Below, piece after piece: positions 14,703 through 33,585 of a DNA stretch of 64,000 nucleotides (position 1 is the first letter of the stretch; the number at the start of each line of letters is the position of its first letter). The translations under genes were made by a program, and so were the position numbers. The DNA lies in NCBI RefSeq assembly GCF_001005725.1, contig NZ_LBIC01000003.1, forward strand, positions 1 through 64,000. Reading direction: 5' to 3'. The notes under the pieces were generated by a model, which was not told where the DNA came from, made no database searches, and was given only the letters and a program-made list of their open reading frames with translations. This stretch comes from Sphingobium chungbukense (GTDB lineage Bacteria; Pseudomonadota; Alphaproteobacteria; Sphingomonadales; Sphingomonadaceae).

Positions 14703-14710
14703 CAATGAAC
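14703..14710 (+). repeat. IS66 target-site duplication, left copy
   Basis: CAATGAAC immediately before the left IS end, repeated exactly at 17308-17315. An 8-bp duplication is usual for the IS66 family. Confidence 0.95.
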
Positions 14711-14779
14711 GTAAGCGGTAAAAATCCCCCACGTGGCGGTGGAGCGGCCGTGGCGGGTTTGGCGATGTAATTTCGGTGA

Positions 14780-16393
14780 TCAAGCAGCGGTGACGATGTT
14801 GCTCATTTCGAACATGGTTTGTCCGGCGTTTGTATTGACCCAGTTGTACGGGAGCAGGTCGTCGATCGGATCCGTGTCGGATCGGGTGATGATCCGGGCG
14901 AGCACATCGGAGAGGTAGGCGTAGGGCTCGAGGTCCAGCATCTTGCAGGTTTCGACCAGCGAGGCGATCGCCGCCCAGTTTTCGGCGCCGAGCTGGTGGC
15001 CTGCGAAGAGCGCATTTTTTCTCTGAAGAGTCACTGGTCTGATGGCACGTTCGGCGGAGTTGTTGTCGAGCTCGATCCGCCCGTCGTCGAGGAACCGGGT
15101 GAAGCCCGCCCAACGTTTCAGCGCATATTTCATCGCGTCGCTTGTCGCCGAGCCAGCCATGACGCGGGGGCTGATGGCGGTGAACCAGGCGTGGAGCTGC
15201 TCGACCAGCGGACGGCTCCGTTCTTGCCGTACAGCGAGGCGTTCCTCGGGCGGGCGACCACGGATGTCCTTTTCGATGCCGTAGATCCTGGCGATGCGCT
15301 GCAACGCATCCTGTGCGATCGGCGCATCACTGCCCGCGTCGACAAACTTACGTCGCAGGTGTGCCCAGCAGTAAGATTTCCAGACGCCAGCATTGGCGCG
15401 GTCATCTTTGCCGAACTGGTCGTAGGCTTGCCATGCATCAACCTGCAGGATGCCCTGGTAGGCTCCCAACAGCTGTCTGGCCCACATGGCCCCGCGGCCA
15501 GGCATATAGGTGTAAAGCGCCAGCGGCGGATCGGCACCGCCATGGGCCCGGTCGTCACAGACGATGACCCACATGTAGCCAGTTTTGGTCTTGCCGGTCC
15601 CCGGTGCCAGCACCTTGACGGTGGTTTCGTCGACGAACAGCCGTGATCGTGCAAGTGCATCCACGCGCATCCGGTCGACGATCGGCTGCAGCGCCGCAAT
15701 GCCCCGGCCGACCCAGTTGGCCAGCGTGGCGCGGCTGATCTCGATGCCCTGCCGCGCGAAGATCTTCGACTGGCGATAAAGCGGAAGGTGGTCGCAGTAC
15801 TTGTTGATGAGAACATCGGCGATCAGCGCTTCGGTCGGCAAGCCGCCTGGCACCACGCGCTCCGGTGCCGGAGCCTGGTGTACGCCATCGGTACAGCACC
15901 GGCACGCATAGCGCGGCCGGATCGTCACCATGACGCGGTGCTGCGCCGGGATGATGTCGAGCCGTTCCGCACGGTCCTCACCGATCTTGTGCAGCGCGCC
16001 GCCACAGGCGCATTCCAGGCTGTCGGGTTCGATCACCACCTCGAAGCGCGGCAGATGCGCCGGCAGCGATGCACGTTGTGTGTCGGCGGACCGGCGTTTG
16101 CGAGGCACGAGGCCATGACGCTCGGTTTCTTCGTCCGTCTTATCCTGCAGGCCCTGGGCCTCACCAAGGGCCACGGCCTGGTCTTCCAGCGCGAGTGCGA
16201 GCTGATCGGCAGAAAGCTTCTCCGACCGCTTGCCGAAGGTCGTGCGGTTGATCAGTTTGAGGATCTGCTCGAGCCGCGCTGCGCGGGCGCGCTCGGCCAG
16301 CAGCATCGCCTTGAGCTGCTCGACGTCGTCGGGAAGCTCGTCGTATCCGGCTTCTGCGCCGGTCGCTGCGGGGAGTTCTGGATGCGCCGCCAC
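14780..16393 (-). CDS. tnpC: IS66 transposase TnpC (DDE)
   Basis: A 537-residue transposase starting at a GTG. The N-terminal part has a leucine-rich coiled coil (about 25-60, DELPDDVEQLKAMLLAERA and onward). Two cysteine clusters of the IS66 zinc finger follow (CACGGALHKIGEDRAERLD and CRCC). The DDE catalytic core (FVDETTVKVLAPGTGK, then LQVDAWQAYDQF) ends with the C-terminal ELDNNSAERAIRPV segment. It is the third gene of the element, and its stop lies 69 bases from the left inverted repeat. Confidence 0.95.
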   Translation of the reverse strand: MAAHPELPAATGAEAGYDELPDDVEQLKAMLLAERARAARLEQILKLINRTTFGKRSEKLSADQLALALEDQAVALGEAQGLQDKTDEETERHGLVPRKRRSADTQRASLPAHLPRFEVVIEPDSLECACGGALHKIGEDRAERLDIIPAQHRVMVTIRPRYACRCCTDGVHQAPAPERVVPGGLPTEALIADVLINKYCDHLPLYRQSKIFARQGIEISRATLANWVGRGIAALQPIVDRMRVDALARSRLFVDETTVKVLAPGTGKTKTGYMWVIVCDDRAHGGADPPLALYTYMPGRGAMWARQLLGAYQGILQVDAWQAYDQFGKDDRANAGVWKSYCWAHLRRKFVDAGSDAPIAQDALQRIARIYGIEKDIRGRPPEERLAVRQERSRPLVEQLHAWFTAISPRVMAGSATSDAMKYALKRWAGFTRFLDDGRIELDNNSAERAIRPVTLQRKNALFAGHQLGAENWAAIASLVETCKMLDLEPYAYLSDVLARIITRSDTDPIDDLLPYNWVNTNAGQTMFEMSNIVTAA

Positions 16394-16460
16394 GCCTGCA
16401 TTCTAGCGGATTTTGCCTCGCGAGGAACAGCCTTGCGCCAAGCAGAATCAGGCATGCGGC

Positions 16461-16814
16461 CTACTGCGCATGGATCGGTTTGGGCACGCGCGGCACGTGC
16501 ACACGCGACCAGTCCAACCCCTCGATCAACGCCGAGGCTTGCGCCGCTGACAGCTTCATCACCCCGTCTCCCGGGCGTGGCCAACGGAACTTCCCATCGT
16601 GCAAGCGCTTCGTCACCAGCACCAGCCCAGTGCCGTCCCAGACCAGGAGTTTGATCCGGTCCGCTCTGCGCGCCCGGAAGATAAACAGCATACCTGAGAA
16701 GGGATCGAGCCTGAGCTCGCGCTCGACCAGCGAGGCAAGGCCCACCATTCCTTTCCTGAAGTCCACGGGCTGCGTTGCGACCAGTACCTTCAGGGGGCCG
16801 GGCGGGATGATCAC
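16461..16814 (-). CDS. tnpB: IS66 accessory protein TnpB
   Basis: A 117-residue protein with the IS66 Orf2 signature: QPVDFRKGMVGLASLV, FSGMLFIFRARRADRIKLLVWDG, GLVLVTKRLHDGKFRWP. I chose the GTG at 16814 because it overlaps the stop of tnpA (GTGA); longer frames upstream only shadow tnpA. It is needed with TnpA and TnpC for IS66 transposition but its role is not well defined. Confidence 0.93.
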   Translation of the reverse strand: MIIPPGPLKVLVATQPVDFRKGMVGLASLVERELRLDPFSGMLFIFRARRADRIKLLVWDGTGLVLVTKRLHDGKFRWPRPGDGVMKLSAAQASALIEGLDWSRVHVPRVPKPIHAQ

Positions 16815-17230
16815 GCGCTCACCCGCGCGGCCAACAACACCCGCTCGATGTGATCCGCGCTCACGTCGGGAGGGATACGGATCAGCAGCCCGCTTGCCTC
16901 GACGACGATCTGGCCGCTGACTGGTGGCACTGCCGCGCTGGACAGCTCGTCGACCTTCCCGCGCTCGACCATTGCCGGCACAAAGGTCATCGCCTCCGCG
17001 CGCTCCCGCAATCCGCGCCGCCATGTGTACAACTGCTGGGGAAACAGCCCGTGGCGGCGCGCCACCGCTGACACATTGGCACCCGGCTCCAGGCTTTCCG
17101 CGATGATCTGCGCCCGCGCCTCGGGCGTCCAGTGCCGCTTGCCCCGCGGGCTTTCGATCACGTCAAGCCGCTGCACCTGACCCGGGGCGCTCGTTTCGAA
17201 ACATGTTTCGAAATCAGTTTCATCACTCAC
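16811..17230 (-). CDS. tnpA: IS66 helix-turn-helix protein TnpA
   Basis: A 139-residue protein beginning at a GTG (MSDETDFETCF). It has an HTH region WTPEARAQIIAESLEPGANVS followed by VARRHGLFPQQLYTWRR (about 33-72), typical of the IS66/IS3 OrfA group that binds the ends of the element. The first gene of the IS operon, close to the right inverted repeat. Confidence 0.93.
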   Translation of the reverse strand: MSDETDFETCFETSAPGQVQRLDVIESPRGKRHWTPEARAQIIAESLEPGANVSAVARRHGLFPQQLYTWRRGLRERAEAMTFVPAMVERGKVDELSSAAVPPVSGQIVVEASGLLIRIPPDVSADHIERVLLAARVSA

Positions 17231-17550: not shown

Positions 17551-18195
17551 TTAAAGGAGTGTCTGCTGGCCTGCCGTCGGCTTGCGTTTCACCCATAGCT
17601 CATCTGTGCGCGTCATCGCGATAAGTTCGCTTGGGAACGTCCGATTCTGGAACGCCTGCACGTCGTCAAAGGAGCCATGGAGCCAGTCGCCATATTCCTG
17701 CTCGTGAAGCAGCACGGGCATACGGTCATGGACGGGGCAAATGGCGTCGTTGCTGTCGGTCATGAGGCCCGTAAATACGGGTCCCCATTCAGCGCTTTCA
17801 CGCCAGAAACCGGCCCACGCGAAGATCGGCTTTCCGATCATATTGAACCAGGTCCGCGTCTTCGCTCCCTGCGGACCCTCTGCCTCTGCAAATGCCGTCA
17901 GAGGAATCAGGCAGCGCAGGTGCGGCTTGCCCGTGATCCCCTTCCACATTGGCTTCGTAAGGTCTGCGACGTTGTTGACCGGTTTTGGCTTTGAGGTGGG
18001 CGCCATGGTTTTCAGCCGTACCGGAAAGCCCCATGTCATGGACTGCATGAGTCTGGCGCCTGCTTCCTCCCGTACGACGACGCTGGGTGCGCCAGGGTAG
18101 ACCTCGTCTCCGGCATTGGATGCTACCGGATTTTCGACGCCGAAATGGGCGGCGACCTCTGCCGCGCTCAACCGCTGTGTATAAAGGTTGCACAT
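17551..18195 (-). CDS. SRAP (YedK/HMCES-type) abasic-site protein, canonical
   Basis: A 214-residue protein starting MCNLYTQRLS, which places the essential Cys at position 2 after Met removal. Other expected active-site residues are present: Asn in PVNNVADL, Glu in FAEAEG and His in VHDRMPVLL. SRAP proteins link covalently to abasic sites in single-stranded DNA through Cys2 and so shield them. An upstream start (18231) is rejected because it would bury Cys2. It follows the DUF4238 gene by 10 bases on the same strand. Compare the degenerate homologue at 22521-23180. Confidence 0.88.
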   Translation of the reverse strand: MCNLYTQRLSAAEVAAHFGVENPVASNAGDEVYPGAPSVVVREEAGARLMQSMTWGFPVRLKTMAPTSKPKPVNNVADLTKPMWKGITGKPHLRCLIPLTAFAEAEGPQGAKTRTWFNMIGKPIFAWAGFWRESAEWGPVFTGLMTDSNDAICPVHDRMPVLLHEQEYGDWLHGSFDDVQAFQNRTFPSELIAMTRTDELWVKRKPTAGQQTLL

Positions 18196-18205
18196 GGCGC
18201 CGAGC

Positions 18206-19126
18206 TTATCCCCCTCTGAGGTGCTGAGCAATCGCTGCTACGGCGCTTTTGCTTCCGCCTACTAGTAAGCGCCGTGATCGAGCAGCAGTTTCGACATTGA
18301 TACTGCTTACTTCCCATGACTCGAATGTTCCATCTTCGATGAGAGATGGAACCGGCCAATCAGACTTGGTAATCAAAAGCGCGAGGTCCGGCGACAAAAC
18401 AATCTTCCAACCCAGATCACTCTCACCACGCTCGAATACGATGCCGGTGTCACCGATCACAAGGTCGGCTCCCTTCGATCGGCGTAGAACCCATTTCATA
18501 TTCAGCAAGCGCTTCTTCAAAATCTCGCGCCCGGATTGATCTGTGATTACATCGGAAAACGGCATGTTCGGATCGCCGCCCGTCGCAAGGAGCGAATCAA
18601 ATAGCCTTCCGAAAATGAGATCACGTGCTTGTGGGGTCGCGGCCTTCAGCTGCGCAAACTCCGCAGGTGAAATTGAAAAGTCAGGTACGCCGAGTGACGC
18701 CATGTAATTGATGAAATCGCCGCACTGATTTGCCACCTCCAAGGATTCTTGGATGTTCAGGATAAGCCCGGCTGCGGCTGAGGGGTAACGATTTACCGTA
18801 CTGGGGTGGCGCAATGCCATAACAGAAAAGAAATCCGCCATATTCTCTCGAAGTTCCAGACTTCGATCACCATTATCAATGCGGCGAAACAGCTCCGCCC
18901 CTTGATTGTCGACAATGCCCATTTCGCCAGTTTCAAGACTTACGTCGGGGCCTGCTGCCGTCGATTGCGTATAAAGATCATATTGAGCCATCAGCATCGC
19001 TACGGACCGTTCGTCGATCTTGTCGGACTCCCAATCGTAGGACCAGACTAACTTCGATTTACCGTCATGCGAAAAACGCTTCAGCCAGAACTGCGGAATG
19101 TAATGATGATTGCGGGGCATATTCAT
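18206..19126 (-). CDS. DUF4238 domain protein
   Basis: A 306-residue soluble protein that opens with NHHYIPQFWLKRFS, the diagnostic start of DUF4238, and continues with ARDLIFG, MPFSDVITDQ and VIGDTGIVFERGES. The family's function is unknown; it is often seen in accessory and defence regions. The start may be the ATG at 19126 or the one at 19120. It is probably co-transcribed with the SRAP gene that follows. Confidence 0.8.
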   Translation of the reverse strand: MNMPRNHHYIPQFWLKRFSHDGKSKLVWSYDWESDKIDERSVAMLMAQYDLYTQSTAAGPDVSLETGEMGIVDNQGAELFRRIDNGDRSLELRENMADFFSVMALRHPSTVNRYPSAAAGLILNIQESLEVANQCGDFINYMASLGVPDFSISPAEFAQLKAATPQARDLIFGRLFDSLLATGGDPNMPFSDVITDQSGREILKKRLLNMKWVLRRSKGADLVIGDTGIVFERGESDLGWKIVLSPDLALLITKSDWPVPSLIEDGTFESWEVSSINVETAARSRRLLVGGSKSAVAAIAQHLRGG

Positions 19127-19254
19127 AGTGCGGGTATGCCGGCGTCCGCTTAAAAATGATAGTTGTTGCCTTATGGCAAATGGAGGATGCTCACCGGTGC
19201 CGGCAGAGTGGCTCTTGCGTCAGCGATCGATGGTCGACGTTACTGCTCGTCGTT

Positions 19255-20256
19255 CTATCGCGGCGGTGCTGCGAGTAGAAGTTTGCAGATGCGGGCGTAT
19301 TCGCTTGGACCAGCAGACGCCAGATCATCAGGGTCGGCAAGCGGCCCGCCTGCATGGCTGATTTCGGTAAGGAGGTCCGCGAATTCCATCCTGCCGGTTG
19401 TTCGGATCTGCTGATGAGTTTCGAGATCGGCATAGCTGATCGAGCTACCGCGGTAGCACCTTAGGACCGCTGCCAATCCCGCGTCATCGGTGATGTATTC
19501 GACGCGCCGCACACTCGACTCGCCTTGAGCTCCCAGCTTCTCCAGCTCGATCTGATGACCGAGGAATCTGCCGATCGTCATGACGTCCGCCAGCACGTTC
19601 TCCACCTCGTAATCCTGTGGATCGGCCTTGAACTTCATTACCTTCCGCGCATCCGGATTCCCGTAGATGCAGGCTAGGCAGAGAACCACGAGTGGGTGCA
19701 CCTTGTGTATGCCCAGTGCGTCTGCGGTCGAGATCACTTGCTTGGCCTTGTCGAAGCGCTTCCTCGGCGAGACGATGGAAGCAAGCCGGTGGATGTCGTT
19801 CGCCGCCTTCAGGAAGCTGACGTAGTTTGGCTCGTCCTGTTCGACCAACAGGCCCCTGGCCGCATCGAAGTAATCGAGATGGAAGGTGTCGGGATCGCCG
19901 GGCTTAGCGTTGGCGAAAAAGCTGCGAACCAAAGCCACGTCTTTTTGGATCTCCGCTCTTAGCTGGGTATCTGAAAGCGCACCCCTTCGATCGTTCACCT
20001 TCTCCATCAGGGCGAGCAGGCAGGAAACCTTGTTGCCTGGCCGGTCGATGTCGCGAAGCCTTGCAAGCAGCGCGACTTTGCGGGCGTCGAGAGGCCGGTT
20101 GTTCGCCGACTTCTTGATCACGTCCATCGCATTGATGTCGAGAAAATACATGGTGGGAATGTGCGGCGACCAAGGCCAGATGATCCATGGCTTCCCCGGC
20201 GCTCGGGTCATTGTAAATCTCAGCTCCATGGACCGTTTCTTGTCATCCGGCATCAC
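19255..20256 (-). CDS. hypothetical protein with PIN-like start
   Basis: A 333-residue protein, soluble and mostly helical. Residues 36-46 (MYFLDINAMDV) resemble the first strand and first Asp of PIN-domain nucleases, and further acidic residues lie downstream (YFDAARGLLVE, YITDDAGLAA), but a full PIN domain cannot be claimed by eye. It is divergent from the membrane protein at 20364, with only 107 bases between their starts, so they may share regulation. Confidence 0.6.
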   Translation of the reverse strand: MMPDDKKRSMELRFTMTRAPGKPWIIWPWSPHIPTMYFLDINAMDVIKKSANNRPLDARKVALLARLRDIDRPGNKVSCLLALMEKVNDRRGALSDTQLRAEIQKDVALVRSFFANAKPGDPDTFHLDYFDAARGLLVEQDEPNYVSFLKAANDIHRLASIVSPRKRFDKAKQVISTADALGIHKVHPLVVLCLACIYGNPDARKVMKFKADPQDYEVENVLADVMTIGRFLGHQIELEKLGAQGESSVRRVEYITDDAGLAAVLRCYRGSSISYADLETHQQIRTTGRMEFADLLTEISHAGGPLADPDDLASAGPSEYARICKLLLAAPPR

Positions 20257-20363
20257 GAATTGCGCCTCATCATCGATCCATCACGTCACTGGCGAGCTGC
20301 CTGATGTCAGCCGCTCGTGGCGAACCTATATTGGATGGCGCTGGAGCATTGGAAGGGGCATGC

Positions 20364-20990
20364 ATGGCCGTGGAATTTGACCGTTCGGACCTGACGGTTG
20401 TTGTGTCGTCTATCGTAGCAGCAGCGGGGCTGGTCTCGTCGCTGACGTTCGACAAAACGCTCGGAACGATCATGACTGCTGGGGGGGTGATCCTGACGGC
20501 AATCTTTGGCTATCTGAAGGCACGCCGCGCCGAAACGAGTGCCCGCCGGAACGCGCTGGACGTCGCAAGCATCTCGGCAAGTGCCGCAATCGATACGAAC
20601 GCTAAGACGGTCTTGGTCCAGACGGTCACGGCCGAGCGGGCGAAGTGGCGTTCGGAATTGAGGGAGGTCGTGACCGAACTGACCGCGCTGCTCCGGGCGT
20701 CAGCCAGGGACGAGGAAGTGATATGGCAGAAGGTGGACCAACTCAGGAGCGGTGTCCGCTTGCGATTGAATCCGGCGGGACGGGGGCCGGCGCCTACCGG
20801 TATCGACAAGCACGAAAAGGACCGCCAGATCCACAACGACCTCGATGCGCTTGACCAGGCGGGGCCCAATAGCAAGGCGCAGCACGCTGTGATCGCTGAG
20901 CGGCTGGAGCGGCACATGGCCGACATCCTGAAGCAGGAATGGGACGTGTCGAAGGTCGAGGCGGTCAAGGGCAAGCTGAAGACGAGCTAA
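20364..20990 (+). CDS. two-helix membrane protein with long cytoplasmic helical tail
   Basis: A 208-residue protein beginning MAVEFDRSDLT. I chose the ATG at 20364 because GGAAGGGG lies just before it; an in-frame start at 20304 lacks such a site. Two hydrophobic segments at about 9-27 and 33-50 (VVVSSIVAAAGLVSS, TIMTAGGVILTAIFGYL) are followed by about 155 charged helical residues with likely coiled coil. The layout resembles SLATT-like or other two-helix membrane effectors of defence systems, but no family is recognised. Confidence 0.55.
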   Translation: MAVEFDRSDLTVVVSSIVAAAGLVSSLTFDKTLGTIMTAGGVILTAIFGYLKARRAETSARRNALDVASISASAAIDTNAKTVLVQTVTAERAKWRSELREVVTELTALLRASARDEEVIWQKVDQLRSGVRLRLNPAGRGPAPTGIDKHEKDRQIHNDLDALDQAGPNSKAQHAVIAERLERHMADILKQEWDVSKVEAVKGKLKTS

Positions 20991-21102
20991 TCTTAAGCGG
21001 CAATGCCGAAGGGCTTGCCCTTCCGGGCTGGGCTCGCGGCCGCGCACGCAGGACGCGGCGCCACTGCCCCTCTGTGGGGAGCAGCGGCGCACGTTCGTCG
21101 CG

Positions 21103-21858
21103 TCAACGCGCCGTCATGCCCCCGTCCACCCGGTAATTTACGCCGGTCAGGAATTTGCCCCTTTCCGATGCCAGTAGCGCAACCACTTCTGCTATATCCT
21201 CCGTCCCGCCGATGCGGCCCAGTGGCACATAGTTTTTCCACTCATCGTCCTTGATGGGAAACTGCTTGCGAAGTTCGTCCGAGTTGGGAGTCGAGATCGG
21301 CCCGGGCGTCACCACGTTCACGCGTATGCCGCTCTCGCCCAGTTCCACTGCCAGGGTGCGGGAGTAATAGTCCAGCGCGGCCTTCGCGGCGCCGTAGTGT
21401 ACGTCAAATGGAAATGCGATCGTCGCTGCCGTCGAGGAGATGTTGACGATGGACGGGGCGCTCGACGCCCGTAGCGTGGGTAGAACCGCATTGGTCATGC
21501 GCACGGCCGCCAGCAGGTTGAGGGCGATGTCCCGCTGCCACTCCTCGTCAGGGATCGACTCCGAGCCGCCCAGGAAGGCCTTCGACCCCCCGGCATTGTT
21601 GATCAGTATGTCGAGGCCACCAAGGACCTCGAGCGCCTGGGCTGCGGCATTTCTCGTTCCAGCTTCGGTGAGCAGATCGCCCGCGACGAACGTCGCTCCT
21701 GTGGGCGTGGTGTCCGTGGGCGAGCGGCCGACGACCACGACGCGCGCCCCGGCATCGAGCAGTCGCTGCGCGATCGCCGCACCGATCCCGCGCGTGCCGC
21801 CGGTCACCAGCGCACGCCGGCCAGCGAACTCGTCGGACAGATCAAGTTTCGTAGACAT
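21103..21858 (-). CDS. SDR family NAD(P)-dependent oxidoreductase
   Basis: A 251-residue classical short-chain dehydrogenase: TGGTRGIG for cofactor binding near the N-terminus, NNAGG, a Ser in NISSTAA and the YGAAK catalytic motif, then PGPISTP. The substrate cannot be told. I chose the ATG at 21858 (MSTKLDLSD), with GGAACC shortly before it. It is divergent from a TetR repressor with two palindromes in between, a usual arrangement for a repressor-controlled oxidoreductase. Confidence 0.88.
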   Translation of the reverse strand: MSTKLDLSDEFAGRRALVTGGTRGIGAAIAQRLLDAGARVVVVGRSPTDTTPTGATFVAGDLLTEAGTRNAAAQALEVLGGLDILINNAGGSKAFLGGSESIPDEEWQRDIALNLLAAVRMTNAVLPTLRASSAPSIVNISSTAATIAFPFDVHYGAAKAALDYYSRTLAVELGESGIRVNVVTPGPISTPNSDELRKQFPIKDDEWKNYVPLGRIGGTEDIAEVVALLASERGKFLTGVNYRVDGGMTAR

Positions 21859-21891
21859 ATGGGTTCCTTCCATTGCATCTGCACCCTATAT

Positions 21892-21927
21892 CGGAGCAGT
21901 GCTCCATATATTCGGAGCGGTGCTCCG
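21892..21927. promoter_or_regulatory. double palindromic operator for the TetR repressor
   Basis: CGGAGCAGTGCTCCA (21892-21906) and CGGAGCGGTGCTCCG (21913-21927) are two copies of a GGAGC-N3-GCTCC palindrome. Their centres are 21 bases apart, two helical turns. They lie between the divergent SDR and TetR genes, where TetR dimers usually bind. Confidence 0.8.
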
Positions 21928-21943
21928 TTTTTCAAGGATCGTC

Positions 21944-22486
21944 ATGCGCGCAGACGCCAAAAAGAATTACGACCGCCTTCTCGCGATCGCGCGGGAGGCG
22001 GTAATCGAGCATGGAGCGGACGCCTCGCTGCGGGACATCGCCCGCCGTGCGGAAGTCGGCATGGGCACGCTCTATCGCCACTTCCCCACGCGCGAAGCAT
22101 TGCTCGAGGCACTGCTGAGCACCGACCTCGATGCACTGACGGAGAAGGCGAAGCAGCTGCAGGCGACGACCTCTCCGGCCGATGCGCTCGCAACCTGGTT
22201 CCGGGAGGGGGTGGCGTTCACGCGCACCTTCGGCGGCGTGGTCGATCTCATGGCGTCAGCGCTGGACGATCATGATTCCGCCCTTCATGCCTCTTGCACG
22301 GCAGTCCGTTCGGCTGGCGCGCTCCTGCTGGAGCGTGCGCAGGAGGCGGGAGCAGCCAGGACCGACATCGATGGCATCGACCTGTTCGCCTTGATGGCGT
22401 CACTCGCGTGGCTCGGCGACCAGCCTGCATTCGCGTCCCGCGTCGACCGATTGTCCGAGACGATCGCGAACACGATTCTGGCGTAA
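21944..22486 (+). CDS. TetR/AcrR family repressor
   Basis: A 180-residue protein. Residues 1-55 form the TetR DNA-binding domain (ASLRDIARRAEVGMGTLYRHFPTREALLEALL). The helical C-terminal domain would bind an unknown ligand and form the dimer. The start at 21944 follows AAGGATCGTC. It is divergent from the SDR gene, and the double palindrome between them is its likely operator. Confidence 0.9.
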   Translation: MRADAKKNYDRLLAIAREAVIEHGADASLRDIARRAEVGMGTLYRHFPTREALLEALLSTDLDALTEKAKQLQATTSPADALATWFREGVAFTRTFGGVVDLMASALDDHDSALHASCTAVRSAGALLLERAQEAGAARTDIDGIDLFALMASLAWLGDQPAFASRVDRLSETIANTILA

Positions 22487-22520: not shown

Positions 22521-23180
22521 TCAGATCATCGCCATCTGCCGCGCCGCATCCGGCGGTGGCGATCCGCTCCGCCACAGATCCTTGGTCGGCTGCACGACCA
22601 TCCGCTCCCCCGGGAACGGCGGCCGGTACTGGAAGCGGATGACGTCCTGGATGCTGCCACGCAGCCACTCGTCATATTCATGGGGGTTCAGCAGGACGGG
22701 CATGCGGTCATTCGTCGGCGGGATGACGTCGTTCGCCTCCATCGTCATGCCGGCATAGACCGGCCCCTCGCCGGGCAGGTTCCGGCAGAAGCCGGCCCAG
22801 GCCATGATCGGCTCGTTCTTCAGCGAGAACCAGGTGCGCGTCTTCGCACCCTTCTCGCCGGCCGGATTGGCGAAGTGCGTCAGGACGATCAGGCAGCGGT
22901 AGCGCGGCTCGACCACAATCTGATCCCACATCGGGTTGGTGAGATCGGCGACCATACCGACGCGGCCCGGATCCTCGCCATGCTCGCGCATCTCACTCGT
23001 CAGTCGCGGGAATCCCCAGGTGACCGACTTGAGGATCCGCTTCCCGCCCTTCTCGAAGACGATCAGCCCAGGCAGCCCCTCGACCGTCTCGTCGGGGATA
23101 TAAACCTGCTGCACGGGGTCGATGCCGAAATGAGCCGCGATATCCGCGGGGCCAGCCCTGACCGTGTGCAATCTCGACAT
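22521..23180 (-). CDS. degenerate SRAP homologue beside the SOS mutasome
   Basis: A 219-residue protein clearly related to the SRAP protein at 17551-18195 (shared VTWGFP/MTWGFP, VADLTNPMW, GAKTRTWF, PIMAWAGF, NDRMPVLL). The expected active-site residues are replaced: the protein begins MSRLH (Ser instead of Cys2), GMVADL replaces NNVADL (Asn lost), FANPAG replaces FAEAEG (Glu lost) and TNDRMP replaces VHDRMP (His lost). It cannot form the usual Cys2 crosslink to abasic DNA. It is divergent from imuA with LexA boxes between them, so it is probably an SOS-induced, non-catalytic DNA-binding partner. The start is supported by alignment with the canonical copy. Confidence 0.85.
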   Translation of the reverse strand: MSRLHTVRAGPADIAAHFGIDPVQQVYIPDETVEGLPGLIVFEKGGKRILKSVTWGFPRLTSEMREHGEDPGRVGMVADLTNPMWDQIVVEPRYRCLIVLTHFANPAGEKGAKTRTWFSLKNEPIMAWAGFCRNLPGEGPVYAGMTMEANDVIPPTNDRMPVLLNPHEYDEWLRGSIQDVIRFQYRPPFPGERMVVQPTKDLWRSGSPPPDAARQMAMI

Positions 23181-23224
23181 GGGACAGGCTCCAGATGGAC
23201 TCGGCGAAGGCCTGTTCTACCACG

Positions 23225-23239
23225 GAACGGATCATGAAC
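23225..23239. promoter_or_regulatory. LexA box (SRAP side)
   Basis: GAAC-GGATCAT-GAAC, an exact match to the alphaproteobacterial direct-repeat LexA site GAAC-N7-GAAC. It lies 45 bases upstream of the degenerate SRAP gene's start, on the SRAP side of the divergent promoter region. Confidence 0.85.
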
Positions 23240-23272
23240 GATAGGCCATTGACTCCCGACCCGGATTGGAGC

Positions 23273-23287
23273 GAACGAATAGGGAAC
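23273..23287. promoter_or_regulatory. LexA box (imuA side)
   Basis: GAAC-GAATAGG-GAAC, a second exact GAAC-N7-GAAC site, 33 bases before the imuA start. The box centres are 48 bases apart, so each divergent promoter has its own site. Confidence 0.88.
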
Positions 23288-23319
23288 GAATCCCCCACGA
23301 GCCGCGTATCCCGAGTCCC

Positions 23320-24048
23320 ATGAACCAGTCCGCCGTCCTTGCCGATCTCCGTGAGCGCATCGCGCTGATCGAGGGCGCGTGCGCGCGGCATCCGGCCCTG
23401 CCGTTCGGGATCGAGGCCATCGACCGGCATCTGCCCGCCGGCGGGATCACCACCGGGGCGCTGCACGAGGTGGCGGGCAGTCCCGAGCTTGCAGACGATG
23501 CGGCCGCGACCGTCTTCCTGGCCGGCATCCTCGCGCGATGCGAGGGGCCGGTCTTCTGGTGCCTGCGCTGGCGCGACCTTTTCGCTCCTGCCCTCCATCT
23601 GGCCGGGCTCGATCCCGACAGGGTGATCTATGTCGAGGCTGGCAGCGACACGAACGTGCTCATCGCCATGGAGGAATGCCTGCGCCATGCGGGCCTCGGC
23701 GGCGTGGTCGGCGAGCTGAAGAAGACGACCCTCACCGCGTCCCGGCGCCTCCAGCTTGCTGCCGAGCAGTCGGGCGTTCCGGCATTCGTGTTCCGGCGCG
23801 CCGCGCCTATCGACGACGTCGCCAGCGGCACGGCGGCACTGACGCGGTGGCGCGTGACGGCGGCGCCCAGCGAGCAGCTCGGCATTCCCAGCCTCGGCCG
23901 TCCGCGCTGGCAGCTCGAACTCGAGCGCGCCCGCGGCGGCGATCCCCAACTCTGGACGGTGGAGGCCTGCGATGAGACGGGTCGCATCGGTCTTCTTCCC
24001 GACGTGGCCCACGGACCGCGTCAGGCGGAAGACCGGCACGCCGCCTGA
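23320..24048 (+). CDS. imuA: ImuA, SOS mutagenesis accessory protein
   Basis: A 242-residue RecA/SulA-like protein (MNQSAVLADLRERIALIEG). It shows LPFGIEAIDRHLPAGGITTGALHEVAG and WCLRWRDLFAPALHLAGLDPDRVIYVEA, typical of ImuA, which lacks a complete Walker A. In the ImuA-ImuB-DnaE2 mutasome it supports translesion synthesis after DNA damage. I chose the ATG at 23320 because it lies after the LexA box; an earlier in-frame start would place the box inside the gene. It overlaps imuB by 77 bases. Confidence 0.9.
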   Translation: MNQSAVLADLRERIALIEGACARHPALPFGIEAIDRHLPAGGITTGALHEVAGSPELADDAAATVFLAGILARCEGPVFWCLRWRDLFAPALHLAGLDPDRVIYVEAGSDTNVLIAMEECLRHAGLGGVVGELKKTTLTASRRLQLAAEQSGVPAFVFRRAAPIDDVASGTAALTRWRVTAAPSEQLGIPSLGRPRWQLELERARGGDPQLWTVEACDETGRIGLLPDVAHGPRQAEDRHAA

Positions 24049-25513
24049 GGGCGAGCCGCTTCCCCTCGTCACAGCGCTTCCCGAACATGGCCGCCGCGTG
24101 ATCGCGGCCGTGGATGGCGCCGCGCGCCGCCTCGGCATCCTCCCCGGCATGACGGTGACGCGCGCCCGGTCGCTGGCACCCGAGATCGAGGTGGTGGACG
24201 CCGATCCCGATGGCGATCTGGAAGGCCTGCGCCGCCTCGCGCTCTGGGCCGGGCGGCTCTATTCGCCCGTGGTCGCGCCGGATCCGCCCGACGGAATCTG
24301 GATGGACATCACCGGCTGCGCCCATCTCTTCGAGGGCGAGGTGCCGCTGCTCAAGGACATCATGCGCCGCATCGCTGGCTCCGGCATGGCCTGTCAGGGC
24401 GCGATCGCCGACACGGCGGGCTGTGCCCATGCGGTCGCCCGCTTCGTGCCGTCCAGACGACCGAACATCGTGGAAGCCGGGCAGACCCGCAAGGCGATGT
24501 CGATCCTGCCCGTGGCCGCGCTCCGGATCGAACCGGGCGTCGCGGACGAGCTGCGCCGCATGGGGTTCGAGCGGATCGAGCAGCTGATCGCCGCCCCGCG
24601 CGCGCCGCTGGCCAAGCGCTTCGGCCGCCAGCTCTACAAGCGGCTGGATCAGGCGATGGGCCAAATCCCCGAGCCCATCGACCCAATCTTCCCTATCGAC
24701 ATGCCCCGCGTCCGGCGGGGGCTGCTGGAGCCCGTCGGCACGGCGGACGCGATCGCACAGGTGATCGGCGACCTGTCCGCCGACATCGCCGCAGTCATGA
24801 CGAAGAGCGGCATCGGGGCGCGGCGGCTGGACCTCCACTTCGAGCGGGTCGACGGTCACCGGCCGGCCGTGCGTGTCGGCACGGCCAAGCCCACCCGCGA
24901 TGTCCGGCACATGACGAAGCTGCTGTCGCAGAAGATCGAGACGGTCGATCCCGGCCTCGGCATCGAGGCGATGTCGCTGGTCGCCAGCCTCGTCCAGCCG
25001 ATGGGCGCCACCCAGATCGGCACCACCCTCCAGAGCGATCGGCGCGGCCCCGATCTGCCGTCCATCGTCGACACGCTGGCCAACCGTTTCGGGGCTCGGG
25101 CGCTCTATCGCGCCATCCCGCGCGAGAGCGCCATGCCCGAGCGGGAGGTCGGAGTGACGCCTGCCATGTCGGCGCCCGCCACCATTGCGTGGGCCGACGA
25201 TCTGCCCCGTCCTGCGCGGACGATCGAGCCGCCGGAGCGGGTCGACGTGATGGCCGCGCTTCCCGACAGCCCGCCGGCGATGTTCGTCTGGCGCGGCCGT
25301 CGCTACCGGATCACCCAGGCCGACGGGCCCGAGCGCCTGCATGGCGAATGGTGGCGTGAGGCGGGCCATGAGGCCGACACGCCGCTCGCCGTCCGGGACT
25401 ATTTCCAGGTCGAGACCGAGAAGGGCGGACGCTACTGGCTGTTCCGGCTGGGCGACGGCGAGAATCCCGCTACCGGCCCGATGCGCTGGTTCATCCATGG
25501 CGCCTTCGCATGA
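23972..25513 (+). CDS. imuB: ImuB, Y-family polymerase-like mutasome protein
   Basis: A 513-residue protein. The N-terminal two-thirds align with Y-family polymerases ([47 protein letters not shown]), and the C-terminal part is a long extension typical of ImuB. ImuB proteins usually lack the catalytic acidic residues and act as a hub joining the beta clamp, ImuA and DnaE2. It starts inside imuA, and its stop overlaps the dnaE2 ATG by 4 bases. Confidence 0.9.
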
Positions 25514-28500
25514 CCGACGACGATCCCCTCGACGGCGTGGGCTATGTCGAGCTGCAGGCGACCACGCACTTCTCCTTCCTGCGCGGCGCGTCCAGCCCGG
25601 AGGAGCTGTTCTCCGCCGCCGCCGTCCTCGGCCTGCCGGCGCTGGGCGTGGTCGACCGCAACAGCTTCGGCGGCGCGGTCCGCGCCTGGGATGCGCAGAA
25701 GGTCACGGGCGTGCGTGCGATCGTCGGCTGCCGGCTAGACTTGGTCTGCGGCACGTCGCTGCTCGTCTACCCCTCCGACCGTGAGGCCTATTCACGGCTG
25801 TGCCGGTTGCTCAGCATCGGCAAGGGCAACGCCGGCAAGGGTGCCTGCCATCTGCACTGGTCCGACGTGGCGGACTGGGCCGAGGGCGTCATCGGCATCC
25901 TCGTTCCGGACCGCGCCGACGCTGCGACGGAGGAGGCACTGGACAGGCTCGCCGCCATCTTTGCCGACCGGGCGTATATGGCGCTGTCCATCCGTCGGCG
26001 CCCCAGGGATGCGATCCGCCTGCGCGACCTGGCGACCATGGCGGCGAAGGCCAAGGTGCCGACCGTCGCGACCGGCGATGTGCTCTATCATTCCCCCGAC
26101 CGACGGATGCTTCAGGACGTGGTGAGCTGCATCAGGGAAAAGTGCACGGTCGACACGCTGGGCCGGCGGCGCGAGCGCTTCGCCGACCGGCACATGAAGA
26201 GCGGAGAGGAGATGGAGCGGCTGTTCCGCCGTTATCTCGGCGACGTCGCACCGCTGCGGCGGAGCGTCGAGATCGCCCGGCGCTGCACCTTCGACCTTGG
26301 CCAGCTGACCTACACCTATCCCGACGAGATCGGGGAGAGTGGGCTGACGCCGCAGCAGGAGCTGGAGCGGCTGACCTGGGAGAAGGCGCCCGGCCGCTAT
26401 CCCGATGGCGTGCCTGCCAACGTCCGCCAGCAGCTCGAGCATGAGCTGAAGCTGATCGGCGACCTCGCCTACGCCCCCTATTTCCTGACGGTCCACTCGA
26501 TCGTCGCCTTCGCCCGGTCGAAGGACATCCTCTGCCAGGGGCGCGGGAGCGCGGCGAACAGCGCCGTCTGCTTCGTGCTGGGCATCACCTCCATCGATCC
26601 GGTGAAGTCAGAGCTGCTTTTCGAACGCTTCGTGTCGGCCGAACGGCGCGAGCCGCCCGACATCGACGTCGACTTCGAGCATGAGCGCCGAGAGGAGGTG
26701 ATCCAGTGGATCTACGAGACCTATGGCCGTGAACGGTCGGCGCTGACCGCCGTCATCTCCCGCTTTCGCGCCCGCGGCGCCGTGCGCGAGGTCGGCAAGG
26801 CGTTGGGGCTGACCGAGGACGTCGTCGCCGGGCTGGCCAGCTCCGTGTGGGGCTGGAGCCGGGAGGGCGTGGAGGCCAGGCACGCTGAGGAACTGAACCT
26901 CGACACCGCCGATCGCCGGCTGGCGCTCACGCTCGAGCTGGCGAAGCAGCTGATCAACACGCCGCGCCACACCTCCCAGCATCCGGGCGGGTTCGTCCTG
27001 ACCCTCGGAAGGCTGGATGAACTGGTCCCCATCGAGCCGGCGGCCATGGCCAACCGCCAGATAATCGAATGGGACAAGGATGACATTGACGCCCTCGGCT
27101 TCATGAAGGTCGACGTCCTTGGCCTCGGCATGCTCGGCTGCATGCGCCGTGCCTTCAATCTGTTGGAGGACGGCAAGGGCATCGCCATGGACCTGGCGTC
27201 CATCCCGCATGACGATCCCGCGACCTTTCGGATGATCCAGCGCGCCGACACGCTGGGCGTCTTCCAGATCGAATCCCGCGCCCAGATGGCGTCGCTGCCA
27301 CTCCACAAGCCCACCGAATTCTACGATCTCGTCATCCAAGTGGCGATCGTGCGTCCCGGTCCGATCCAAGGCGATATGGTCCATCCCTATCGGCGGCGGA
27401 GGGCCGGGCTCGAGCCCGTCACCTATCCAACCGAGGAGCTGCGGCGCGTGCTGGAGAAGACGCTGGGCGTCCCGCTCTTCCAGGAGCAGGCGATGCGCGT
27501 AGCCATCGAATGCGCCGGCTTCACCCCGTCGGAGGCCGATCTGCTCCGCCGGGCGATGGCCACTTTCAAGCTCACTGGCGGCGTGTCGCACTTCCGGGAC
27601 AAGCTGATAGACGGCATGATCGGGCGCGGGTACGAGCGCGAGTTCGCCGAGCAGACCTTCCGCCAGATCGAGGGCTTCGGCAGCTACGGCTTCCCCGAAT
27701 CCCACGCCGCTTCCTTCGCCCTCATCGCTTATGCGTCCAGCTGGATGAAGTGCCACCACCCCGACGTGTTCTGCGCCGCCTTGCTGAACGCCCAGCCCAT
27801 GGGCTTCTACGCCATCGCCCAGATCGTGCGGGACGCGCGCAACCACGGCATCGAGGTCCGCCCCATCGACGTGAACCACAGCCGATGGGACTGCACGCTC
27901 GAGCCGACCGGCGGCCGCTATCTCGCCGTCCGTATCGGGCTGCGCTACGCCCGCGAGCTCAGCAACCAGGACGGCGCCGCCATCGTCCTTGCCCGGGGCG
28001 ACGAGCCCTTCACCTCGGTCGAGGAGATCCAGCGCCGCGCCGTCGTCAGCGGGCGTGCCCTCGACCGGATCGGCCATGCGCGCGGCTTCGGATCGCTGAA
28101 CCTCACCCGCCGGTCAGGCCTGTGGGAGGTGAAGGGTCTGGGTGCCGAGGCTCTGCCGCTGTTCGCCGCCGCCGACGATCGGGCGGGCAAGCTGCGACCC
28201 GAGGCGATCGAGCCGGAGGTGGTGCTGGCCCAGATGGGAGAAGGTGAGGAGGTGGTGGAGGACTATCGCTCTGTCGGTCTGTCGCTGCGCGCCCACCCGC
28301 TCGCTTTTCTCCGCGACGAGCTGAACGCCCGCAAGATGGTGACCTGCGCCGCCCTCAAGGACATCCGCGACGGCCGATGGATCAACCTCGCCGGCCTGGT
28401 CCTGCTGCGGCAGAAGCCGGGATCGGCGAAGGGGACGATGTTCATCACGCTCGAGGACGAAACCGAGGTCGCCAACCTCATCGTCTGGCCCAAGCTGTTC

Positions 28501-28839
28501 GAGGCCAGCCGTCGCATCGTACTCGGCGCCAGCATGATGGGCGTGCGCGGCCAGGTCCAGAAGGAGGGCGAGGTCATCCACGTCATCGCCCAGCGCCTTG
28601 AGGACCTGTCGCCGATGCTGGCCAGCGTCGGCCGGCGTGAGGATGTGGCCAGCGTCTATCAGGTGGCGCGCGCCGATATCGTGCGCAGTCCCATGGCCCC
28701 CGATCCGCGTGATCGGGCGAACCGGCCGCTCGGGCGCGCGCCCCGCGACATGTTCGATCCGGACCTGCGCCTGGGGTCGGGCATTATACCCGGCCAGCCG
28801 ACCGAAGGCATCAAGATCAAGACGCGGGATTTCAGATAG
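25510..28839 (+). CDS. dnaE2: error-prone DNA polymerase DnaE2 (ImuC)
   Basis: A 1109-residue C-family polymerase. The N-terminal PHP domain ([21 protein letters not shown]) leads into the polymerase core with the catalytic aspartates in [16 protein letters not shown], a fingers region with [10 protein letters not shown], and an OB-fold near the C-terminus ([21 protein letters not shown]). The length fits DnaE2 (about 1050-1110). It carries out mutagenic translesion synthesis with ImuB. Last gene of the LexA-controlled operon. Confidence 0.93.
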
Positions 28840-29523: not shown

Positions 29524-30207
29524 CTAGGTGGACGGAGGGAACACGCTATCGGTCGAGACGAGGCCGGCTTCGGCCGCGAATTCGCGGAAAATAGCGCAAT
29601 CCGCTTCGATATGCACTAAGAAGCACTCGACCGGTAGTGGTGTATTCCGCAGCGGTCCGAGGAGGTGGGCACTCTGGACGCCGGCGCGCGTTCGCGCGCC
29701 CTCGATGGCGATCGCGGTTAGGTCGGTCAGGCCAACTTTCTCGCAAGCCGCCCGATCGAGCACATAGAGATGACCGACACCATCAGCGGCATTGTAGCTC
29801 GCCATTTTCTTGCGCAGAAACAAGGGGCGCTCGTCACAGTCCTCGCAGAGCTCCACGCTTGGTTCGTCCGAATACCGGTTCCCAGCGAACCATGCCGACA
29901 CGGCAGGTTGGTCTGAACAGTCGAGGTAGAACGACCTAAATCCGTAGTGTTGCAGGATCGCTTGGCTCAGCGGCAGGTTGGAGTGCTCTCCTGTGAAAGC
30001 CCCGAGCACCTCGTCGGCATACCGGCTCCACCGCAGCATTTCTGAGGGGATGCAGCCATGACGATCAAACGATGTCGTCGCAGATGGGTGTTCGGGTGTC
30101 CCAAAATGTTCTGTCTGACCTCGGAATAGAACATTCTTGCCGAAGGCGGCGAGGCACTCCTTCAATTCGACGAGATTGTTCACCTTGATGTTTTGCAACG
30201 CCACCAC
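29524..30207 (-). CDS. FRG domain protein
   Basis: A 227-residue protein. It shows the FRG signature: VLFRGQ at 26-31, then ILQHYGFRSFYLDCSDQPAVSAWFA (split about 84-108), the conserved QHYG...DxS...A.WFA pattern. FRG domains have unknown biochemistry and are found in phage-defence and toxin contexts. The start is a GTG at 30207 (or the next GTG at 30204) with a GTAGAAG stretch before it. Read ahead of the 28891-29514 gene; a possible 60-residue gene ends 3 bases upstream. Confidence 0.75.
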   Translation of the reverse strand: MVALQNIKVNNLVELKECLAAFGKNVLFRGQTEHFGTPEHPSATTSFDRHGCIPSEMLRWSRYADEVLGAFTGEHSNLPLSQAILQHYGFRSFYLDCSDQPAVSAWFAGNRYSDEPSVELCEDCDERPLFLRKKMASYNAADGVGHLYVLDRAACEKVGLTDLTAIAIEGARTRAGVQSAHLLGPLRNTPLPVECFLVHIEADCAIFREFAAEAGLVSTDSVFPPST

Positions 30208-30210
30208 CTT

Positions 30211-30393
30211 CTACCGCCGACACACCTGCCATTCGCCGGCTTGGATTAGCCTATCAGCCAAATGATCGGTCTCAAATTCATGCCTAGCAACAGTCAGTAA
30301 GTGGCCGATACCCCAGTTTCCTGTTTGGATACGAGATATGGAGATAGCTCCCATTTCCATCGGGTTGCCGTCCGACCAATGCCGGTCGTTCAA
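30211..30393 (-). CDS. possible small gene heading the FRG operon
   Basis: 60 residues (MNDRHWSDGNPMEMG ... AGEWQVCRR), ending 3 bases before the FRG gene start on the same strand. The tail forms a plausible amphipathic helix (LADRLIQAGEW). No family match. It could instead be leader sequence. Confidence 0.35.
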   Translation of the reverse strand: MNDRHWSDGNPMEMGAISISRIQTGNWGIGHLLTVARHEFETDHLADRLIQAGEWQVCRR

Positions 30394-30769
30394 TACGTCT
30401 GCGCTGAACGTCCGGTCCTATTGGCCGAACGTGGATGGCATCCTGCTGCCTGAATTCCAATCACCCGCGAAGGCTCCGGCGCTACAGGGCTATCGGCAAG
30501 TCGGTGTCGGTCCGGCTGTCGTCGCATTGGGGGCGCTCCCGCCGAATCTACCTTTCATTCCGCGCATTGCGCCCGGCCGGAAGCCATCGTTGGTTTTGGC
30601 AAACCTGTTGGAGCGACACCCATAGGGGCCACATCCCGCCGCCGGGGCGGGCATTCGCGGCAAGATCTGCGTACCGACCGAAGCGCGGCCGAGCCGGCCG
30701 CCTTTTTTATCTTGCTTTGCGCGAATGCTGTCCGATCTTGCGTAAAGGGAAACAGAATGCGGGGTCGGG
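30394..30769. other. intergenic region between the FRG operon and the Shedu-like gene
   Basis: 376 bases. Frames on the plus strand here look like translated noise or decayed coding sequence (no recognisable protein). The region ends with a rho-independent terminator (30685-30709) reading rightward, which suggests that a plus-strand transcript once ended here. Confidence 0.5.
30685..30709 (+). terminator. rho-independent terminator without an obvious upstream gene
   Basis: Stem GCGGCCG (30685-30691), loop AGC, CGGCCGC (30695-30701), followed by CTTTTTTA. Good stem plus T-run on the plus strand. The nearest plus-strand gene upstream is far away (dnaE2 ends at 28839), so it may belong to a lost gene or shield the Shedu-like gene. 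Confidence 0.7.
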
Positions 30770-32023
30770 GTGAACGGATCTGCTCATCGCAGCACTTTTG
30801 TGAAGGCAATCAAGGAAGCTGCCCCAGAACTGCGCGACCGCATCAATCGTCAGAAGCAGGACATCTATGCGGAGGTCGATGTCGTCCTGCTGCATCTGAG
30901 AACCTTGGTCCGCACGGGCGAAAAAGCGGATGCGGATCGCCTAATGGCGGTCATCGTCGATCAGTATCGTGAGGCGAATGAGCTGCTGAAGCACGCGCTC
31001 GATACTAAGCTCGTCGCCCCCCTCAAGGACCAGAAGACCGAAGGCTGGCCCGACTGGGCGGTCGAAACGCGCGCCGACGTGCTGGCGATGGCCGGAGAGA
31101 GCGGTCCCTACGAGCCCCTGTGGGAAGGCGATCTCAGTGACGATTGCACCGCCGAGCTTCACGGCTACATGCTTCGCGCGGAAAAGATGGACGACCGGCA
31201 GTGGTGGTGGGCCCTCTATGGTCCGGATGGCAACATATCGAGTAACGAAAAGCCGGGTAACTATACCACCGGAGGCCAGGCGCGTCGCGCGGCCGCCAAC
31301 GAATTTCGCCGCGCGGTCGGGGCTCCGCGCGGAGAGCCGCAAGGCGCCAGCGACATGGTCGCTCTCGGCCTCGTCGACGGCGCGCTGCGTTTGTTCGCCT
31401 TTGCAGATGACGAGATCTACCGCTTCGCCGACGGCAACAACAATCCTCATCAGATTCTCAGTCGCATCGCCCATTTCGGGCGCTTCCTTAGCGGTGCGAT
31501 CAACGAGTTCGAGGAGCTGATCAACAGTCCGCTGGCAAAGGAGCGCGATCTTCAACGCTTCTTCGAAACCTATCCCGATTTCCTGATCCGCGACGAGTAC
31601 AAGGCTGCTCATCCCCATATGGTGCTCAGCACACCAGGTCATGGCGATCTGATACCCGACTTCGTGCTCGAACCCCACGACCAGGGAGGTTTTTGCGACC
31701 TGCTCGAGTTGAAGCGGCCGCAGCACAAGATCACATCCTACATGAAGAATCGGCCGGATTTCACCGCGACCGTCCATCGCGCCAAGGCACAGCTGCGCAC
31801 CTACGAGGCTTATTTCGAAGAAGAGGGCAATCGCACGAGGATTGCGCAGCGCTATGGCCTTAATCTCTATCGTCCGCGGATGATTCTCGTTATCGGTCAA
31901 AAACAGCACATCGATCCGCGGATCTCCGCGCTCGAATACCGGCGCATGGAGATGGAAACGCCGCAGCTCGTCATCCGCACCTATGACCAACTGCTGGATC
32001 GAATGCGCTCTAGGAACCGCTAG
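30770..32023 (+). CDS. Shedu-like nuclease (DUF4263, SduA type)
   Basis: A 417-residue protein starting at a GTG. The C-terminal half (about 250-417) is a DUF4263/Shedu-like PD-(D/E)XK nuclease: RDLQRFFETYPDFLI, then GDLIPDFVLE (Asp297) and CDLLELKRPQ (Glu313-x-Lys315), and KAQLRTYEAYF. The N-terminal half (1-240) is helical then mixed and would carry the sensing region. Shedu is a single-gene antiphage system, so this gene may act alone. It stands by itself between two opposing units. Confidence 0.75.
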   Translation: MNGSAHRSTFVKAIKEAAPELRDRINRQKQDIYAEVDVVLLHLRTLVRTGEKADADRLMAVIVDQYREANELLKHALDTKLVAPLKDQKTEGWPDWAVETRADVLAMAGESGPYEPLWEGDLSDDCTAELHGYMLRAEKMDDRQWWWALYGPDGNISSNEKPGNYTTGGQARRAAANEFRRAVGAPRGEPQGASDMVALGLVDGALRLFAFADDEIYRFADGNNNPHQILSRIAHFGRFLSGAINEFEELINSPLAKERDLQRFFETYPDFLIRDEYKAAHPHMVLSTPGHGDLIPDFVLEPHDQGGFCDLLELKRPQHKITSYMKNRPDFTATVHRAKAQLRTYEAYFEEEGNRTRIAQRYGLNLYRPRMILVIGQKQHIDPRISALEYRRMEMETPQLVIRTYDQLLDRMRSRNR

Positions 32024-32119
32024 GCGATCGCCGGTGTTAAGCGCATCCACGAACGACCGGTGTCAGCGTAACCGGACGTTCCCAATCGTGCCGCCAACGG
32101 CAGGATGTCGCGGATTTAG

Positions 32120-33460: not shown

Positions 33461-33585
33461 TAGCTTTGTTCCGACCTAAGGATTGAAGGGCTAATCGCTA
33501 TCTCAGACACCGCCGAATGGCGACCGTGGAGGGGGCAAAATGCCAGCGGAAATCTGGTGAGCATAGCTCTTGCAAGCCCTAGCGC

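Follow-up and report, generated by a model that had tools for sequence, protein, structure and literature searches.

The SRAP homologue encoded beside imuA, imuB and dnaE2 in the window (the whole 64,000-nucleotide stretch of DNA that was analysed) has none of the four residues that mark crosslinking SRAPs (Cys2, Asn, Glu and His). Our best explanation, held with moderate confidence and drawn from sequence comparison, is that this protein, termed pseudo-SRAP below, is a conserved, SOS-induced SRAP pseudoenzyme that would act together with an active SRAP and with an ImuA-ImuB-DnaE2 mutasome of a divergent type; its biochemical function we infer. A conserved pseudo/active pair, SOS-type control and a mutagenic polymerase together make the choice between shielding and copying at an abasic site testable.

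Pseudo-SRAP has the predicted SRAP fold and replacements at all four crosslinking positions

The pseudo-SRAP gene (22521..23180, minus strand) encodes a 219-residue protein beginning MSRLH. It belongs to the SRAP family by descent: it matches the curated Pfam profile PF02586 with 49.9 bits (cut-off 27.1) over profile positions 49-203 of 214, and the predicted fold agrees. The AlphaFold2 model has a pLDDT of 91.2 and a pTM of 0.89, and each of the 21 PDB entries that it matches at E ≤ 0.001 is an SRAP structure, with identities of 13-19%. With the active SRAPs YedK and HMCES (PF02586) pseudo-SRAP shares this fold (2aeg, 1zn6 and the YedK-DNA complex 6kbz; TM-scores by query length of 0.70-0.74), the WGF and DRMP motifs and its size. 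Unlike them, it has Ser2 at the Cys position, Met76 at the Asn position (YedK N75), Asn105 at the Glu position (YedK E105), Asn157 at the His position (YedK H160) and Cys in place of Trp at residue 132, and it is predicted to be unable to open AP sites or to crosslink. Placement of Met76, Asn105 and Asn157 is backed by alignment to the solved SRAP 2aeg, independently of the paralogue, and that of Asn105 and Asn157 also by alignment to 2f20. The four replacements claimed in the original prediction stand. The initiator Met is presumably removed ahead of Ser2, and in YedK Arg77 has a role. The last five codons (22524..22538, minus strand) encode QMAMI, a clamp-binding-like tail whose residues 216-219 have pLDDT values under 50.

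A profile search of the genome with PF02586 revealed two SRAP genes in all, pseudo-SRAP and an active partner. Neither was matched in PADLOC and NCBIfam searches.

Genomic setting of the pseudo-SRAP gene

The imu genes are transcribed divergently from pseudo-SRAP. The imuA gene (23320..24048, plus strand) matches NF033429 with 64.2 bits, below the cut-off of 150; its start is best taken as the ATG at 23320; a longer ORF from a TTG at 23266 would include one of the LexA-type boxes described below. It is followed by imuB (23972..25513, plus strand), which encodes a Y-family protein with DUF6504 and reads TQIGTTL, not QxxL, at the aligned clamp site, and by dnaE2 (25510..28839, plus strand), encoding the error-prone polymerase (NF004225, 1340.6 bits).

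In gene content the window resembles a mobile element, with ParB-like, coupling protein, TrwC relaxase, DarT-like, defence-type and integrase genes. The genes for a type IV coupling protein and a TrwC relaxase (6964-11993), together with the integrase gene (38963-40216), suggest an integrated transfer element. The same element encodes a DarT-like ssDNA thymidine ADP-ribosyltransferase domain (13952-14770; PF14487, 62 bits), and the genes around 14780-17230 are what we take to be IS66. Defence-type genes together span 29524-38437: an FRG domain gene (29524-30207), a Shedu SduA-like gene (30770-32023), a gene for an LmuB-like SMC ATPase (33586-36018) and a SIR2-like gene (36671-38437). Among phage records two had a match, at 25-29% identity.

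LexA-type boxes precede pseudo-SRAP and imuA

Within the 139 bases that separate pseudo-SRAP from imuA there are two exact GAAC-N7-GAAC sites, as the original prediction had stated: GAACGGATCATGAAC at 23225..23239, some 45 bases ahead of the start of pseudo-SRAP, and GAACGAATAGGGAAC at 23273..23287, some 33 bases ahead of the ATG of imuA. The number of exact boxes in the whole window is unremarkable (3 against 1.45 expected, a count reached by 16 of 100 shuffles); the telling point is the presence of two of these three boxes in one short intergenic stretch. No exact box was found just upstream of the active SRAP partner of the window.

Of 79 loci, 40 have an exact box in the 300 bases that precede pseudo-SRAP, against a background, measured on these same loci, of 0.031 per 300 bases. 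Where imuA lies upstream on the same strand, a box is found at imuA in 16 of 18 arrays. Direct boxes (40 loci) and those at a same-operon imuA (16 more) thus cover 56/79 loci, and the remaining 23/79 have no exact box at either place. By these counts the pseudo-SRAP promoter carries alphaproteobacterial LexA-type boxes, and the gene is a predicted member of the SOS (LexA) regulon.

Pseudo-SRAPs of other genomes form one conserved clade

A collection of species genomes was scanned with an alignment of nine orthologues, yielding 80 loci (the best 80 of 91). These come mainly from Sphingobium, Sphingomonas, Sphingopyxis and Rhizobiaceae, with further loci, again among the best 80 of 91, in Phenylobacterium, in two Rhodospirillales and on one contig labelled Erwinia oleae. 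The last (L105) carries a dnaE2-pseudo-active array of the rhizobial type, which would reflect transfer or contamination.

With eight loci from relatives added to the scan loci, 87 pseudo-SRAP frames were compared, near-copies included. Position 2 is Ser in 78, Ala in 5 and Cys in 1 (3 gaps); the Asn site is Leu in 83, Met in 3 and X in 1; the Glu site is Asn in 84, Gln in 2 and Asp in 1; and the His site is Asn in 86 and Asp in 1. The 83 active frames have C82 (1 gap), N83, E83 and H82/R1 at the same sites, the lone Arg belonging to a frame with a different end (L037). After removal of rows more than 85% identical, 43 pseudo-SRAPs (that of the window included) and 39 active SRAPs remained. 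At the Cys, Asn, Glu and His sites the former read S39/A4, L39/M4, N42/D1 and N43, and the latter C38 (1 gap), N39, E39 and H39. Residue 132 is Cys in 41/43 pseudo-SRAPs and Trp in 39/39 active ones. One pseudo-SRAP (L099) retains an acidic residue, Asp, at the Glu site.

The two Rhodospirillales sequences are intermediate. One (L108) still has Cys2, with Leu, Gln and Asn at the other three sites, and the other (L110) has Ser, Leu, Gln and Asn. These states suggest that the acid-base residues were lost before Cys2. Cys132 is present in both, in L108 alongside Cys2.

When 100 rows were placed in a maximum-likelihood tree, the pseudo-SRAPs fell on one side of a branch with SH-aLRT support of 100, and the clade of active partners has support of 94. 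The two intermediates group with the pseudo-SRAPs at 83, below the starred level. The dN/dS of pseudo-SRAP has a median of 0.271 and a maximum of 0.548 (1681 pairs, dS 0.1-1.5), that of the active partner a median of 0.172 (906 pairs); most pairs have a high dS. For close pairs (dS 0.08-0.6), near-copies among them, the medians are 0.105 (64 pairs) and 0.058 (53 pairs). Pseudo-SRAP is therefore constrained, somewhat less than its active partner. Interrupted copies occur in three of the 80 scanned loci (best 80 of 91; L103, L104 and L111) and in genomes G005, G009 and G025, of which G009 carries a whole copy too; another copy (L109) contains unknown bases. On these sequence measures we regard the pseudo-SRAPs as one old, conserved clade under purifying selection. 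Simple decay, which the original prediction had named as refuting it, is rejected for the clade as a whole: the replacements are near-fixed and dN/dS is low.

Pseudo-SRAP is paired with an active SRAP

An active-type SRAP gene with all four residues intact lies at 17551..18195 (minus strand), 4.3 kb from pseudo-SRAP. The genes between the two (18206..22486) encode a DUF4238 protein, two proteins without a Pfam match, an SDR and a TetR protein. None of them stands between the two in a near relative (L121), in which pseudo-SRAP and active SRAP are adjacent and divergent from imuA; the partner in the window therefore appears to have been split from pseudo-SRAP by the 18206-22486 genes. The original prediction had the residues of this canonical SRAP right; we read it as a displaced partner rather than an independent gene.

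An active SRAP is found nearby in 75 of 79 pseudo-SRAP loci. The gap from pseudo-SRAP to its downstream partner has a median of 49 bases over the 74 loci where it could be measured and is at most 150 bases in 52 of them. The sequences show one duplication, both copies of which have mostly been kept together. The active partner can apparently change residues too: in L170 (genome G075) it has Asn at the His site, beside a normal pseudo-SRAP. An AlkB-like dioxygenase gene lies between or beside the SRAP pair in 25/80 loci (best 80 of 91), for example in L034, L035, L046, L060, L084 and L112 (within L033-L112).

The SRAP pair favours one of two ImuABC types

The imu genes are present in the flanks (up to 8 kb) of 43/79 pseudo-SRAP loci; in the other 36 no imu gene was found within these flanks, some of which are ended by a contig end. 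In sphingomonads the imu genes are divergent from pseudo-SRAP. At most rhizobial loci all are on the same strand, and pseudo-SRAP starts about 10 bases past the dnaE2 stop.

The ImuA of the window was used to search 89 Sphingomonadales genomes at E ≤ 1e-15, a threshold that a more divergent imuA would escape. The search gave 38 sites in 33 genomes, and the 37 besides the window were read. In a tree of the ImuB proteins 30 form one clade, the ordinary type 1. The divergent type 2 comprises the pseudo-SRAP-linked ImuBs and six others, with support of 100 under a midpoint root. A SRAP pair lies within 10 kb of type 2 in 3/7 cases besides the window (L129/G075, L134/G115 and L135/G078) and within 10 kb of type 1 in 0/30, as judged with PF02586, which very divergent SRAPs may escape (Fisher p 0.0045). 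A single active SRAP was found near type-1 ImuABC at one locus (G121). Pseudo/active pairs thus favour, on the loci compared, a divergent ImuABC type over the ordinary one. The check proposed with the original prediction, whether loss of Cys2 is general for SRAPs linked to imuA, gave a negative answer: a pseudo-SRAP together with an active SRAP is the rule where the clade occurs, and the ordinary ImuABC loci sampled in Sphingomonadales had no such pair within 10 kb.

The source genome has two more imuA cassettes, at G000:C1:49964-50599 and G000:C1:102614-103306, one per ImuABC type; no SRAP was found on the contig that carries them. The dnaE2 match of the cassette at 102614-103306 is partial only.

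A second Cys-less SRAP family recurs beside imu genes

Two of the three type-2 pairs outside the window contain a second Cys-less SRAP family. Its members are without the N-terminal segment that holds Cys2; the Asn site is Phe (Ala in 1/13), the Glu site Met, Val, Leu or Ile, and the His site Gln (Arg in one). In Sphingomonadaceae the family was found in 13/249 genomes with a match above 130 bits. The gene is divergent from an active SRAP starting [MV]CNDY in 14 of the 16 loci read, and in all 14 the 300 bases preceding the active gene contain a LexA-type box. An imuA gene is within the stretch read in 9/16. One copy (L222) is broken and another (L220) looks shortened.

Further Cys-less SRAP lineages, of MTQLYR and [MV]T[THA]L types, were noticed. 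Among them are those at L212 664-1305 (MTALYR) and L113 7629-8432 (VTTLYR), which have imu genes in the stretch read. The other two of the 16 loci (L225 and L226) show a third way of combining pseudo and active genes: a Cys-less SRAP related to the second family directly precedes a partner-type active SRAP, both on one strand.

Clamp-binding motifs in SRAP tails, ImuB and DnaE2

A C-terminal Q-x-x-[LMI]-[LMIFV] motif ends 30/43 pseudo-SRAPs, compared with 4/39 active partners. All 7 rhizobial members among the 43 lack it. In the second family the C-terminus reads QxxLxL or QxxL[LI] in 10 of 13 cases and QxxLxV in one more, and the active SRAPs beside it often end in such a motif too. Variants of the clamp motif exist, such as QMSLL of MutS, and HMCES has a PIP box. 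Across Alphaproteobacteria a QxxL[FL] tail ends 13 of the 30 SRAPs drawn (L227-L256), and there is possibly a general link of bacterial SRAPs to the clamp through such a tail. Since the tail is common in active SRAPs, it would have been kept in pseudo-SRAP rather than invented there; the idea of a pseudo-SRAP invention is weakened by the class-wide count and by the active neighbours of the second family.

In mycobacteria, ImuB requires its beta-clamp-binding motif for mutasome function, according to the accessible part of that study (PMC10421592). Most ImuBs linked to pseudo-SRAP are without such a motif at the aligned site, and the pseudo-SRAP tail often carries a similar one. Q..[LMFI] is present at the aligned ImuB site in 27/30 type-1 proteins; it is found in 5/39 pseudo-SRAP-linked proteins (that of the window and near-copies included), in 0/6 other type-2 proteins and in 0/8 beside the second family (one of them already counted elsewhere), a total of 5/52 for the divergent type. 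Among 37 linked loci, the tail motif stands alone in 16 and the ImuB motif alone in 1; 3 have both and 17 neither. Strict transfer of the motif from ImuB to pseudo-SRAP is not upheld by these states, which are not complementary locus by locus. The DnaE2 proteins of both ImuABC types carry a clamp-like site of their own (QMAML and similar; 32/40 and 28/28), which explains none of the difference between the types.

These counts allow a bolder reading, in which the mutasome was remodelled: one ImuABC type would have lost the clamp tether of ImuB, and an inactive SRAP, which would have arisen two or more times, would have replaced it, reading damaged single-stranded DNA with the SRAP pocket and holding the beta clamp with its tail. 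We consider this unlikely, because rhizobial members have no such tail, the motif is common class-wide and the states per locus are not complementary. If the tail truly replaces the lost motif of ImuB, the route by which ImuABC mutasomes get to the fork would have to be seen differently.

Discussion

Cys2, Glu105 and His160 have been studied in YedK. In the available sections of that work (PMC9436759), the C2A and C2S variants form a trappable Schiff base only. Glu105 is the driving residue for ring opening and for formation of the Schiff base, with His160 aiding the former, and in C2A E105Q the lyase rate falls from 0.05 to 0.002. E105D does only modest harm. Cys2-blocked YedK with E105Q or H160Q keeps DNA binding and does not cleave AP-DNA. 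Pseudo-SRAP unites several such losses and, judged by those sections, should therefore bind without chemistry. Translesion polymerases are reported, in the part of the source at hand, to be blocked by the HMCES crosslink (PMC10250235).

On the reading that we prefer, an SOS-induced pseudoenzyme beside an active SRAP and a divergent mutasome, pseudo-SRAP would bind single-stranded or abasic DNA in the SRAP manner and would neither open the sugar ring nor crosslink. The lesion would be held free of the DNA-protein crosslink that would halt translesion synthesis, and a non-crosslinking paralogue induced together with the mutasome would leave it open to bypass. Crosslinking would still be available from the active partner, and the ratio of pseudo to active protein might decide between shielding and mutagenic bypass. 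The flexible QxxL[LI] tail of sphingomonad and Phenylobacterium members may tie pseudo-SRAP to the beta clamp. The usual company of a working SRAP suggests that bacteria strike a balance between protecting damaged DNA and replicating through it. The original prediction of a conserved, SOS-linked and non-covalent role agrees with the residue states, dN/dS, tree and LexA-type boxes; a template-DNA reader that guides the mutasome, its example, would be a candidate role. Pseudo-SRAP is tied to the ImuA-ImuB-DnaE2 complex by gene linkage and shared LexA-type boxes, which make it a putative subunit at most.

Pseudo-SRAP could instead act solely on the active SRAP, regulating or antagonising it as a competitor or hetero-oligomer partner, with the imuABC link due to shared SOS control on mobile elements. 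The pair is indeed steadier than the imu link (75/79 against 43/79 loci), and a predicted conjugative plasmid of Sphingobium yanoikuyae has the pair without any imu gene across the 18.7 kb displayed. We nevertheless think this rather improbable given the 43 linked loci, the rhizobial same-strand array downstream of dnaE2, the recurrence of the imu link in the second Cys-less family (9/16 loci read) and the preference of pairs for one ImuABC type (3/7 against 0/30).

Another chemistry, kept or gained and directed at a different lesion, would use the Ser2 amine for a Schiff base or the new Cys132. Trapping of YedK C2S as a Schiff base, in the sections available (PMC9436759), speaks for the first, and Cys132 in 41/43 pseudo-SRAPs and both intermediates, against Trp in 39/39 active SRAPs, for the second. 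This is improbable when Glu105, the Schiff-base driver in YedK, is replaced in 43/43 (Asn 42, Asp 1) and Ser2 is itself replaced by Ala in 4/43. It is still harder to see pseudo-SRAP as serving the mobile element by coating and protecting incoming single-stranded plasmid DNA during conjugation. The coupling protein, TrwC relaxase and integrase of the window fit such a role, as do 25 predicted conjugative records among 41 matching plasmid records, of which those of low identity may be partner or other SRAPs; LexA-type control and the tight rhizobial array with dnaE2 indicate a damage response instead. That a redundant SRAP copy is simply decaying, a view for which the interrupted copies (L103, L104, L111, G005, G009 and G025) could be cited, may practically be dismissed for a gene that spans Sphingomonadales, Rhizobiaceae and one Caulobacteraceae genome with low dN/dS and replacement residues fixed or nearly so.

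SRAP genes beside imuA-imuB-dnaE2 were described by Aravind et al. in 2013, who called the cysteine absolutely conserved (PMC3765255). The neighbourhood is like that reported here; the accessible part of that paper describes no Cys-less members or pseudo/active pairs. A SRAP-like protein has been proposed as the small subunit of a translesion polymerase (PMC12926913); the polymerases there are UmuC-like, not ImuABC, and the available text does not mention the residues. SRAP also adjoins another damage-linked polymerase, polB2 (PMC11791011), where the part consulted cites AP-site protection and no inactive form. In the open-access literature searched, available in part and with subscription papers mostly outside it, no description of Cys-less SRAP clades or of pseudo/active pairs was found. 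SRAPs are assumed to be crosslinkers, and the residues of pseudo-SRAP run against this. Three plasmid-borne pseudo-SRAPs (L166, L167 and L168) are annotated with the term protein-DNA covalent cross-linking (GO:0018142), in conflict with their residues.
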